A stretch of 23,400 nucleotides of DNA from a virus, in IMG/VR virus record IMGVR_UViG_3300022698_000145, positions 1 through 23,400 of that record; one strand, given 5' to 3'. Position 1 is the first letter of the stretch. Each line of letters starts with the position of its first letter. Below are positions 3,650-18,851 of the stretch, piece by piece. A model generated the notes under the pieces. It did no database searches, was not told the DNA's origin, and saw nothing but the letters and a program-made list of their open reading frames with translations. Position numbers and translations under genes: made by a program.

Positions 3650-3726
3650 ACCTCCGTAGCACAATTGGATAGTGCAACAGCCTTCTAAGCTGTAGGTTAT
3701 TGGTTCGAGTCCAATCGGGGGTGCCA
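3650..3726 (+). tRNA. tRNA-Arg (anticodon UCU)
   Basis: A complete cloverleaf is visible: acceptor ACCTCCG with CGGGGGT (one G:U), anticodon stem ACAGC/GCTGT around loop CTTCTAA, T arm ATTGG-TTCGAGT-CCAAT, discriminator G and encoded CCA. It reads AGA codons, which T4-like phage tRNAs often supply. Confidence 0.95.
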
Positions 3727-3733
3727 AGTTTAT

Positions 3734-3809
3734 TCCACCATAGCTCAGTTGGTAGAGCAGAAGACTGTTAATCTTTTGGTCCCTGGTTCGAGTCCAGGTG
3801 GTGGAGCCA
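3734..3809 (+). tRNA. tRNA-Asn (anticodon GUU)
   Basis: The acceptor is TCCACCA/TGGTGGA, the D arm GCTC-AGTTGGTA-GAGC, the anticodon loop CTGTTAA, and the T arm CCTGG-TTCGAGT-CCAGG. Discriminator G and CCA are encoded. It lies seven bases after tRNA-Arg, so the two are probably one processed transcript. Confidence 0.95.
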
Positions 3810-3822
3810 AATAAATAGATTT

Positions 3823-3913
3823 ACTGGATACCTGCCTGTGAGCGGTTATAAAGCGAGTAGACGGAATATGTAACAGTCTACCTTAGTGACAATGTGTGGT
3901 TCGTCCATCCAGT
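3823..3913 (+). ncRNA. Putative structured RNA A in the tRNA cluster
   Basis: No coding frame is supported here. The segment is bounded by a perfect 7-bp inverted repeat, ACTGGAT (3823-3829) with ATCCAGT (3907-3913). Inside is a 6-bp perfect hairpin, GTAGAC (3857-3862) with GTCTAC (3876-3881). The size and closed ends suggest a processed stable RNA. It is not a canonical tRNA because no standard T arm is present. T4 carries two stable RNAs of unknown role (C and D) in its tRNA cluster, which is the closest precedent. Confidence 0.5.
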
Positions 3914-3919
3914 TTATTT

Positions 3920-4071
3920 TTAGTGAGTGCTCTTGAGGTTGCGTTCAGTGTTGGAAACTATCATGAACGGTAAATGTACTAGAGTCGTAGGGAGTAGCTA
4001 CCCGTAGACGCACTATACAGACCTCGCCAAATTCTAGAATATCGGGCAATAAAAATAAGAGCACTTACTAA
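3920..4071 (+). ncRNA. Putative structured RNA B in the tRNA cluster
   Basis: A 15-bp terminal stem (3920-3934 with 4057-4071, one G:U pair) encloses the segment. Nested inside are GAGGT (3935-3939) with ACCTC (4021-4025), GTTCA (3943-3947) with TGAAC (3964-3968), and a GTAG/CTAC hairpin at 3987-4001. The long closing stem with stacked inner pairing is far beyond what chance would be expected to give. The function is unknown. Confidence 0.6.
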
Positions 4072-4077
4072 ACACCC

Positions 4078-4270
4078 CTAACTACTCGTGAGTTAGGCTA
4101 CGTTGAAAGACGTGTGACCTGCCAAGCCTCTTAACAATGCTCAAATCGGCGAAAATGCTGTACAGTATGGTCAACTGTATGGAGTGGTCAATCGGACTGA
4201 GTTTGTAAGTCCTGTGATGTACAGCAGGCTGATAATGTGGGATAAGGATCGAAAGGTCGACTCCCCACAC
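4078..4270 (+). ncRNA. Putative structured RNA C in the tRNA cluster
   Basis: Four helices can be read. CTAACT pairs with AGTTAG (4078-4083/4091-4096). TACGT pairs with ACGTG around TGAAAG (4099-4114). A perfect 8-bp TGCTGTAC/GTACAGCA (4156-4163/4219-4226) encloses GGACT/AGTCC (4194-4198/4208-4212). TGTGGG/CCCACA (4236-4241/4264-4269) encloses GATC-GAAA-GGTC with a GNRA tetraloop. A minus-strand ORF of 64 codons here has no coding features. The role is unknown. Confidence 0.55.
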
Positions 4271-4290
4271 CCCCAAATTTCTGCTACCTT

Positions 4291-4371
4291 AGGTCGTTTA
4301 TGCGGCTGATGCAGGAGCGCCCGTCAGAGCTATTGAAGAGGTTTCGTGCCCTCGACATAAATCTGACACCT
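4291..4371 (+). ncRNA. Putative structured, tRNA-like RNA D next to tRNA-Thr
   Basis: The outer pairs are AGGT (4291-4294) with ACCT (4368-4371) and TTTATG (4297-4302) with CATAAA (4356-4361). Two inner hairpins follow: CTGATG/CGTCAG (4306-4311/4322-4327) and GAGG/CCTC (4338-4341/4350-4353) with a TTTCGTGC loop. This multibranch layout recalls a reduced cloverleaf but lacks a proper anticodon arm and CCA end. It directly abuts tRNA-Thr, so processing of that tRNA's 5' end would release its 3' end. Confidence 0.45.
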
Positions 4372-4372
4372 T

Positions 4373-4448
4373 GCTTCCTTAGCTCAGTTGGTAGAGCAAC
4401 GCACTTGTAATGCGTAGGTCGTCAGTTCGAATCCGACAGGAAGCACCA
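4373..4448 (+). tRNA. tRNA-Thr (anticodon UGU)
   Basis: The acceptor is GCTTCCT/AGGAAGC, the D arm GCTC-AGTTGGTA-GAGC, and the anticodon stem ACGCA/TGCGT around loop CTTGTAA. The T arm with TTCGAAT follows, then discriminator A and encoded CCA. It reads ACA. Confidence 0.95.
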
Positions 4449-4453
4449 TTTAC

Positions 4454-4544
4454 AGAGAGTTGGGTGAGCGGTTTATACCAGCAGTCTTGAAAACTGCCGT
4501 GCGTTAATAGCGTACCGAGGGTTCGAATCCCTCACTCTCTGCCA
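4454..4544 (+). tRNA. tRNA-Ser (anticodon UGA)
   Basis: At 91 bases with a long variable arm, this is a class II tRNA. The acceptor is AGAGAGT/ACTCTCT and the anticodon stem GCAGT/ACTGC around loop CTTGAAA. The T arm GAGGG-TTCGAAT-CCCTC is followed by discriminator G and encoded CCA. It reads UCA. It is the last tRNA of the cluster. Confidence 0.95.
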
Positions 4545-10780: not shown

Positions 10781-11026
10781 ATGAATCGTGATGATATTGT
10801 GAGCGTGTTGAACGAGAAGGTTACTGACTTCTCTTATAAGAAAGCTGATGGTGAATTGCGCCAAGCTAAAGGTACACGAATGTTATCAGAAGTCCCTGCC
10901 GAGAAGCTACCTAAGAGCGAGGACTCAAAAGAAAACGCTCAAACCGTGCGTTACTATGACATGAACTCTGACGGCTGGCGTTCGTTTCGAGTAGAGAACT
11001 TTGTGGGGTTTGCTGATGAGTCTTGA
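10781..11026 (+). CDS. SH3-barrel-like small phage protein (paralogue 2)
   Basis: This 81-residue protein shares FSYKKADGELRQAKGT and TVRYYDMNSDGWRSFRVENF with the protein at 6313-6567, in the same order and spacing. The family is the small phage proteins labelled SH3 beta-barrel fold. AGGAG precedes the ATG by six bases. It overlaps the start of the GT4 gene by 11 bases, so the two are coupled. The role is unknown. Both paralogues lie just upstream of an enzyme gene (dNMP kinase and GT4). Confidence 0.8.
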   Translation: MNRDDIVSVLNEKVTDFSYKKADGELRQAKGTRMLSEVPAEKLPKSEDSKENAQTVRYYDMNSDGWRSFRVENFVGFADES

Positions 11027-11981
11027 AGATATTTCTGACAACGAAGTGATTGGACCAACCGAAGACGGCACATACTCAGAAGCTAACGGCGGAACCGAGA
11101 TGATGAGTCGTGGTCTTGTTGAGCGTATTGACCCAGAATTGCTTGAGCAGTTCAATATCATTAAGTCACGTGTTCGTCATGTAGACGATCAGAAGAAAAA
11201 CGTTTTGTGGTTGCATGATACATGGGATGACCCAGAGTCTCAGCATTTGCGCTCCAAGGAAAGTCGTTCTCGATTCGACAAGCTGGTGTTTGTATCAAAC
11301 TATCAGTTCCAAACATACCATATAACTCATGGTGTTCCTTATGCCGAGTCTATTGTGCTTAAGAATGCGATTGAGCCGATTGAATTCAAAGTCAAGCCCA
11401 AAGATCAAATCCGTTTGATCTATCACACAACACCTCATCGTGGTCTACAGTTGCTTGTTCCTGTCATGGAAGAACTAGCTAAGATTCATGGGGATAAGAT
11501 TCACCTTGACATCTATTCGTCGTTTGAGGCGTATGGTTGGAAAGAGCGTGACGAACCGTACCTCGACCTGTTTGAGCGTGCGAGACAGCACCCCAATATG
11601 ACGTACCACGGTTATCAACCTAACCACGTTGTAAGAAAGGCACTACAAGAAGCACACATCTTTGCGTATCCAAACATTTGGCCAGAGACGTCATGCATTG
11701 CAGCTATTGAGGCGATGAGTGCTGGGTGTGAGATTGTCTGCCCGAATCATGCAGCATTACCGGAAACGCTGGCGGGTTTTGGTACGATGTATCAGTTCAG
11801 CGAAGATATGAACTATCATGCAAACGTATTCGCCAATGTGCTACACCAAGCCATCGGTCGTCACTACGATGAAGACAACCAAAAGAAGTTGATGTTCCAG
11901 AAGAACTACATTGACAATTTCTACAACTGGGATGTCCGTGCCGCTGAATGGACTGGTATGTTGAGGGGTTTGTCAAAATAA
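11016..11981 (+). CDS. GT4-type glycosyltransferase
   Basis: This 321-residue GT-B enzyme should transfer a sugar from a nucleotide donor. The N-terminal domain carries EANGGTEMM (about 22-30), seen in many GT4 enzymes. The C-terminal donor domain has the E-x7-E motif in WPETSCIAAIEAMSAG (Glu 224 and Glu 232), followed by PNHAALPE. No membrane segment is visible. ATG 11016 overlaps the upstream SH3-like gene; an earlier in-frame ATG at 11001 lies deeper within that gene. With the enzyme at 212-1903 and the protein at 14458, it suggests phage-directed glycosylation, but the acceptor is unknown. Confidence 0.85.
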   Translation: MSLEDISDNEVIGPTEDGTYSEANGGTEMMSRGLVERIDPELLEQFNIIKSRVRHVDDQKKNVLWLHDTWDDPESQHLRSKESRSRFDKLVFVSNYQFQTYHITHGVPYAESIVLKNAIEPIEFKVKPKDQIRLIYHTTPHRGLQLLVPVMEELAKIHGDKIHLDIYSSFEAYGWKERDEPYLDLFERARQHPNMTYHGYQPNHVVRKALQEAHIFAYPNIWPETSCIAAIEAMSAGCEIVCPNHAALPETLAGFGTMYQFSEDMNYHANVFANVLHQAIGRHYDEDNQKKLMFQKNYIDNFYNWDVRAAEWTGMLRGLSK

Positions 11982-18137: not shown

Positions 18138-18851
18138 ATGTCTGTTGATATTTATAATTTCATATACAAAACAATCTCACCTAGCGGAAGATATTATATC
18201 GGTCGCCACACCACAAAAAACTTACAAGACGGGTATCTCGGATCTGGTAAGTGGGTCAATTCATACAAAAACAAATCCAACCTCAAAAGGGTTATTCTAG
18301 AATTTGCTGAAGATTTTGAAACTCTATTGGAGTTGGAAGAGAATCACATCAATAATTCTATTGACGACCCGTTGAATATGAACTACAATAATAAGCCTGT
18401 GGGGTTTGGTTCGGGTAAACATAACCCAAACACAGACCCAAAAAGAAAGAAGTTTCTCACAGAAAGAATGATGGGTGTTAAAAACCCAATGTATGGTAAA
18501 ACCCATAACGAAGAAACTAAGAGAAAAATAAGCGAGAGCACTTCTGGGGAAAATAACCCATTCTACGGCAAAAGTCACACTATCGAAACCAGAAATAAAA
18601 TTAAAGAAACATCTACCGGAAGAAAATTGACCGAAGAAACCAAGAAAAAGCTTTCTGAAATTAAGAAAGGTAAAGAAACTTGGAATAAAGGGTTAGAGGG
18701 ATGTTTCGAAATGCCAGAGTCAGGTAAACAGGCTATATCAAAATCATGGAAAGATAGACCAAAACTAGAGTGTGAAAACTGTGGTGAATCATTTTACCCG
18801 AATACATATAAAAGATGGCACGGCGATAATTGTAAAAATGCGAAACTTTGA
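18138..18851 (+). CDS. GIY-YIG homing endonuclease
   Basis: The 237-residue protein has a GIY-YIG nuclease domain (about 1-90): IYNFIYKT in place of GIY, GRYYIGRH (17-24) with the catalytic Arg 23, GYLGSGKW, and EENHINNS with the candidate catalytic Glu near 67-68. NUMOD3-like DNA-binding repeats follow (NPMYGKTHNEETKRKISES and NPFYGKSHTIETRNKIKET). The C-terminus has a possible zinc finger CENCGESFY...HGDNC. It should cut DNA in related phages lacking the element and copy itself there. It is free-standing, not in an intron. The codons are richer in AAA/AAT than in neighbours, which fits transfer. It overlaps the next gene by 14 bases. Confidence 0.92.
   Translation: MSVDIYNFIYKTISPSGRYYIGRHTTKNLQDGYLGSGKWVNSYKNKSNLKRVILEFAEDFETLLELEENHINNSIDDPLNMNYNNKPVGFGSGKHNPNTDPKRKKFLTERMMGVKNPMYGKTHNEETKRKISESTSGENNPFYGKSHTIETRNKIKETSTGRKLTEETKKKLSEIKKGKETWNKGLEGCFEMPESGKQAISKSWKDRPKLECENCGESFYPNTYKRWHGDNCKNAKL

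Follow-up and report, generated by a model that had tools for sequence, protein, structure and literature searches.

What is encoded in the 563 bases that separate tRNA-Asn from tRNA-Thr in the tRNA array of the virus record analysed here (23,400 bases, hereafter the window), and what might it do for the phage? Four tRNAs, identified with ARAGORN and Rfam, lie within positions 3650-4544 and flank the block in the way stated by the preliminary description of this DNA:

3650-3726, + strand: tRNA-Arg, upstream neighbour of the block
3734-3809, + strand: tRNA-Asn, upstream neighbour of the block
4373-4448, + strand: tRNA-Thr, downstream neighbour of the block
4454-4544, + strand: tRNA-Ser, downstream neighbour of the block

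Bacteriophage T4 has stable non-tRNA transcripts, its RNAs C and D, in its tRNA cluster; the RNAs labelled B and C below are likewise non-tRNA RNAs amid phage tRNAs, a likeness drawn by description only. To our knowledge, no role has so far been assigned to non-tRNA RNAs in phage tRNA clusters. The block holds no credible protein gene, as had been claimed; the only open reading frames, one of 64 aa on the minus strand and one of 41 aa on the plus strand, have no Pfam match. ARAGORN and Rfam recognised the flanking four tRNAs only and gave no tRNA or tmRNA match for any of the segments A, B, C and D; promoter and terminator scans came out near shuffled expectation and are uninformative. The four segments had been described as RNAs of equal rank, all of them unknown. 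The presence of structured RNAs without annotation in the tRNA cluster is borne out, but the block, though real, is uneven: B and C are genuine structured RNAs with relatives and covariation, neither of which was seen for A or D, and a stretch of C matches RF03085, a family already in Rfam. The features are as follows:

3823..3913, + strand: segment A; possible terminal stem, RNA status not supported
3918..4073, + strand: RNA B; new structured RNA family (fold energy, alignment A1, model R2)
4074..4111, + strand: two small hairpins ahead of C (z -2.46 for 4074-4115)
4112..4272, + strand: RNA C; composite of abiF core and 3′ module (eleven-sequence alignment A2)
4120..4151, + strand: abiF RNA core (RF03085); Rfam match, proposed AbiF-binding head
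4153..4272, + strand: 3′ module of C; R1 match of 109.5 bits, covariation on alignment A3, proposed scaffold
4291..4371, + strand: segment D; two possible hairpins, RNA status not supported

The core of C matches RF03085 with 42.2 bits (cut-off 37; E 8.6e-5 for all of Rfam and the whole window), model positions 3-34 being aligned throughout, and the helices as well as the unpaired CAAAUC stretch of abiF RNA are retained; by score and structure, C is an abiF RNA. It is the single abiF match in the window, and Rfam revealed no tandem copies of the motif. The covariance models of Rfam were thus productive for C and gave no match for A, B, D or the 3′ module of C. Searching with a core pattern returned seven IMG/VR contigs; the similarity extends past the core, as in the window, in L002, L004, L005, L007 and L008, while L003 and L006 contain the abiF core alone. 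Changed or interrupted cores were recovered from L012, L030, L043, L044 and L050 by further patterns and by reading of the flanks. Among 12 distinct sequences (alignment A4, which omits near-duplicates as well as L030 and L043 with their loop insertions, and adds the lone abiF motifs of L003, L006, L009 and L010) the seven pairs of the core are 96.4% paired, two of them with changes on both sides. In alignment A2 the long insertions of L030 and L043 split the apical loop of the core, with both flanks retained.

The core of C is fused to a module of about 120 nt. The stem in C previously called a perfect 8-bp helix is present, but comprises 9 bp (UGCUGUACA/UGUACAGCA, 4156-4164 with 4218-4226); the GNRA hairpin was found as described (GAUC-GAAA-GGUC, 4247-4258), enclosed by a GUGGG/CCCAC stem (4237-4241 with 4264-4268), and the predicted fold of C contains all three elements. 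Alignment A2 consists of the window's C and ten relatives (L002, L004, L005, L007, L008, L012, L030, L043, L044 and L050). A pattern for C returned 33 stretches, nine of which were retained (L004, L005, L007, L008, L012, L014, L021, L030 and L033); the other 24 were rejected as chance matches by reading of their flanks, and six of these, compared with the covariance model R1, gave no match below E 3. By R1, 22 of 34 phage records contain the 3′ module, that of the window included; copies outside the reach of the C patterns are a second one in L005 (E 9.6e-11) and those in L055 (3.8e-6), L056 (1.5e-5) and, weakly, L042 (0.028). For alignment A3, 12 of 24 R1 matches (E up to 0.03) were used, with omission of near-duplicates and of copies whose upstream part is not the same; 93.6% of cells are paired, and nine of 23 pairs have changed on both sides. 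The covariation score is 0.386, against 0.192 for shuffled alignments (0/500) and at most 0.110 when the structure is slid along the alignment, the latter a comparison favouring the proposed structure, which was drawn after viewing the alignment. Helix 2 is the weakest, with 83% pairing and no double change. Compensatory changes in relatives, then, were seen in both parts of C.

The 3′ module also occurs apart from the abiF core, in L014, L021, L033, L046 and L047, or behind a second head which starts near TTCACGGTGATGC or a variant of it and continues with GCTTAGCCCGAGAAGA:

L005 2565-2664, - strand: second-head copy
L042 120-244, - strand: second-head copy
L055 94-228: second-head copy
L056 12916-13023: second-head copy

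Since the module is found with another head or without the core, the head of C looks exchangeable, and since several relatives of C lack the core, AbiF alone cannot be the general role of the family. In L014, partial or repeated copies of the module (615-715 and 1494-1616) are separated by about 780 nt, an arrangement that an insertion splitting the module and duplicating part of it would give. The two hairpins at 4074..4111 are confined to the window; none precedes C in the relatives compared.

RNA B has a long terminal helix, the stem claimed earlier, an inner body of several helices and an invariant hairpin, GCCAAAU...UAUCGGGC. The covariance model R2 matches the window at 3914-4077 with 163 bits, and pattern searches together with R2 recovered 13 other copies on 12 IMG/VR phage contigs. 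Alignment A1 comprises 13 of the 14 copies, the window's among them (L053, a duplicate of L058, was left out); both sides have changed in 26 of 45 pairs, and in 13 of the 17 pairs of the terminal helix, so that compensatory change is evident for B also. The covariation score of 0.425, from a structure predicted on the same alignment, compares with 0.194 for shuffled alignments (0/500) and with no more than 0.154 for slid versions. Across A1, the hairpin GCCAAAUYCUAG..UAUCGGGC has invariant pairs, a constancy that is in part due to selection of the copies because this very stretch had served as a search pattern. Rfam release 15 has no match for B or for the 3′ module of C, be it from the window or from seven relatives; they are two RNA families absent from that release. 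When the block, B and C were compared with the phage collection, and B with the plasmid collection, the abiF core alone gave a meaningful E-value. A search for host-side copies of B in 395 genomes from the same phylum as G034 found none, an empty answer that shows little. B and modules of the C type occur together in five of the 13 records bearing B (in L042 weakly); in L005, B follows C directly. A short RNA lies 3′ of C in L002 (after 3332) and L030 (about 455-540); the stem closing it (TTTTAGARTAGGCACTG...) resembles the terminal stem of B, and that of L002 has no Rfam match at cut-off.

Folding energies were scored against dinucleotide shuffles (200 or 300 per segment), and the excess stability expected of the segments was found in part only. 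B is far more stable than its shuffles (z -4.85, 0/200; z -4.04, 0/300) and the 3′ module of C moderately so (z -2.32, 4/300), but C as a whole is unexceptional (z -0.78 and -1.14), the abiF core by itself folds worse than shuffled sequence (z +1.57), A is at chance level (z -0.63 and -0.41) and D is weak (z -1.92, 9/200, for 4276-4372; z -1.65, 19/300, for 4291-4371). Energy is a poor judge here, with low power, because the four genuine tRNAs beside the block reach z values of just -1.2 to -2.3. For A and D no relatives were found in 57 loci; an 18-nt pattern from A led to L115, where the match amounts to 35 nt at 86% identity, on a contig without tRNAs and overlapping open reading frames. 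Both segments may be spacers or, alternatively, narrowly distributed RNAs. That the entire block is spacer DNA folded by chance, as the lack of clear excess stability or confirmed relatives for A and D would allow, can practically be dismissed and is refuted for B and C by the abiF match (E 8.6e-5), the recurrence of the composite RNA in ten other contigs and the covariation of both RNAs.

The association with tRNA genes is not peculiar to the window. Among the loci collected, 14 of 23 C modules and eight of 14 copies of B have a tRNA or tmRNA gene within 200 nt, the nearest such gene being in these cases always on the same strand; nine C modules (six once near-duplicates are merged) end 3-5 nt before a tRNA. 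In cyanophage S-SZBM1 the abiF RNA precedes tRNA-Ala by 4 nt, with tRNA-Pro further upstream, and in Arthrobacter phage Mimi a match of 33 bits, below cut-off, follows tRNA-Tyr. As the motif is also intergenic outside tRNAs in several isolates (Acj61, PZL-Ah8, CGphi29, CRP-143 and two mycobacteriophages), tRNA arrays appear to be its favoured, not its sole, site. On the phage contig L030, a permuted tmRNA (629-888; RF04321, 112.5 bits) is located close downstream of C.

In the published system, abiF RNA serves as antitoxin to AbiF, a HEPN RNase toxin of the Abi_2 family (available part of PMC12373285). Abi_2 (PF07751) has no match in any of the 34 phage records, the window's own among them and ten with an abiF RNA above cut-off, or in any of seven further isolates, of which five have an abiF RNA above that threshold; the 15 abiF-positive phage records include seven isolates, six titled complete genome, and IMG/VR records may be fragments. 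C of L005 matches 58 phage records; six among the 20 matches listed were examined with Rfam, five scoring over the abiF cut-off and Mimi below it. A control scan of species genomes with the same abiF core gave 31 places, all of which we take from their titles as Bacteroidales; there, an AbiF gene begins 19-33 nt downstream of the core at 21 of the 31 (tblastn), three loci being cut by contig ends, and ten of the adjacent proteins were confirmed as Abi_2. Seven of the 31 cores (L064, L072, L077, L084, L088, L089 and L091) lack AbiF despite more than 900 nt downstream. With the toxin gene missing, the locus in the window is not an AbiF toxin-antitoxin module (type III), and C is an orphan abiF RNA. 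Prophages are suggested by the open reading frames downstream of some of the seven bacterial cores without AbiF: that in L077 starts like its counterpart in the viral contig L003, and L064 and L091 have a similar one in common.

How such an RNA might act can be judged by comparison with known systems, again as far as the available parts of the sources go. RCd22 of C. difficile has two abiF motifs and works by direct binding, both in cis and in trans; breaking its stems abolishes the action (PMC12373285). In common with abiF RNA, to which RCd22 and AbiFr of PbAbiF belong, the core of C, scoring over the RF03085 cut-off, has its helices and the unpaired CAAAUC; unlike RCd22, C has one core and is followed by no toxin gene, and unlike abiF RNA it is fused to a module foreign to Rfam and situated amid tRNA genes. 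Phage PhiTE encodes pseudo-ToxI, an RNA mimic of a type III antitoxin (PMC3475682); both would be phage-encoded RNAs directed against a host RNase toxin, an activity that for C is inferred, but pseudo-ToxI is a tandem repeat with another toxin family and RNA fold, C a single composite RNA. RNA anti-CRISPRs (Racrs) are, like C, viral copies of an RNA element from host defence that stand alone, without the gene of the partner protein; they imitate CRISPR repeats, whereas C would imitate the AbiF antitoxin (PMC10651486). By analogy C may work like pseudo-ToxI and the Racrs, while belonging to neither. An abiF motif was found with Rfam in the lytic cyanophage S-CREM1, Rfam's list naming three phage genomes; in its available part that report gives the motif only, with no role or link to AbiF neutralisation, and mentions neither a composite RNA, B, nor the absence of the toxin (PMC9964418). 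The composite RNA and B are not named in the titles and abstract openings examined, from a literature with few subscription journals.

Our preferred reading, which we consider to have about even chances of being right, is that C is a phage-borne antidote to AbiF set free by tRNA processing, and B its companion RNA. The block would thus be part of a phage tRNA unit carrying two structured RNAs, which would share a transcript with the tRNAs and be excised from it when tRNA ends are processed, as suggested by related copies lying a few nucleotides from same-strand tRNAs. The abiF RNA of the host would keep host AbiF inactive; once infection halts host transcription, this RNA would decay and release the toxin, whereupon C made by the phage would use its abiF core to bind AbiF and hold it inactive, to the benefit of the phage. 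The 3′ module would most likely be a scaffold stabilising or maturing C; for B we can only guess at a host RNA-binding protein other than AbiF, contacted through the invariant hairpin. This comes close to the earlier proposal of decoys or regulators of host nucleases, C carrying the core of an AbiF-silencing RNA. It is argued for by the core over cut-off, the compensatory changes, the conserved composite RNA and the tRNA linkage, by the lack of Abi_2 in phage records as against AbiF at 21 of 31 bacterial cores, and, from the available parts of these sources, by neutralisation in trans by abiF RNA (PMC12373285) and the precedent of pseudo-ToxI (PMC3475682). Against it count the seven of 31 bacterial cores that lack AbiF too, the single core of C compared with two in RCd22, a minimum-energy fold of C without the abiF hairpin, the poor folding of the isolated core relative to shuffles, the relatives of C that lack the core, and the finding that single-copy wild-type pseudo-ToxI of PhiTE was not antitoxic before expansion (PMC3475682, available part). 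Should the reading hold, one RNA of a phage tRNA cluster gains a named, testable partner, AbiF, held to be the forebear of Cas13 (PMC12737573, PMC12165695, available parts).

It is possible, though we doubt it, that B and C are housekeeping elements of the phage tRNA operon, with functions in processing, stability or translation, and that the abiF-like core is a recruited protein-binding fold. The tight linkage to tRNAs, often of 3-5 nt, the retention of the 3′ module by relatives without the core and the permuted tmRNA beside C in L030 would fit this, but it leaves the close retention of abiF sequence and the orphan abiF motifs outside tRNA arrays (Acj61, CRP-143 and others) unexplained. An extension of the antidote reading, which we put forward as a speculation with a rather low chance of being correct, regards phage tRNA arrays as stores of decoy RNAs, in which the 3′ module of C serves as a common scaffold for exchangeable heads that imitate the RNA partners of different host RNases; the abiF head would disarm AbiF, the second head and B other toxins, all freed by tRNA processing. 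If this were true, RNAs in tRNA arrays would offer a route to unknown RNA-controlled defences.

Descent of C from a defensive abiF module once carried by a phage, with the toxin lost and the RNA persisting as a relic or in a drifted use, is improbable: prophages can bear complete AbiF modules (PMC12373285, available part), and cores are varied or interrupted in L012, L050, L043 and L030, yet core and module show purifying selection and compensatory changes, and the same composite recurs in many contigs with the toxin gene in none of the 34 records. Still less credible, indeed very unlikely, is the converse role, in which C would trigger AbiF by displacing or disturbing the host antitoxin, or the host would sense infection through C; the motif would bind AbiF either way, and the related AbiD1 is activated by a phage product, but in the published system abiF RNA inhibits by itself (both from the available part of PMC12373285), and a trigger would be costly to retain across many lytic-looking phages.

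As to the phage itself, no relatives of two flanking proteins were found in viral_contigs; by way of one exonuclease of the window, the nearest isolate is Phage C48C1 (Kyanoviridae), with 54% identity. An open reading frame with NUMOD3 motifs, probably a homing endonuclease, adjoins this exonuclease gene (18138-18851), and the window further contains capsule-synthesis-like and glycosyltransferase genes at 212-1903 and 11001-11981.
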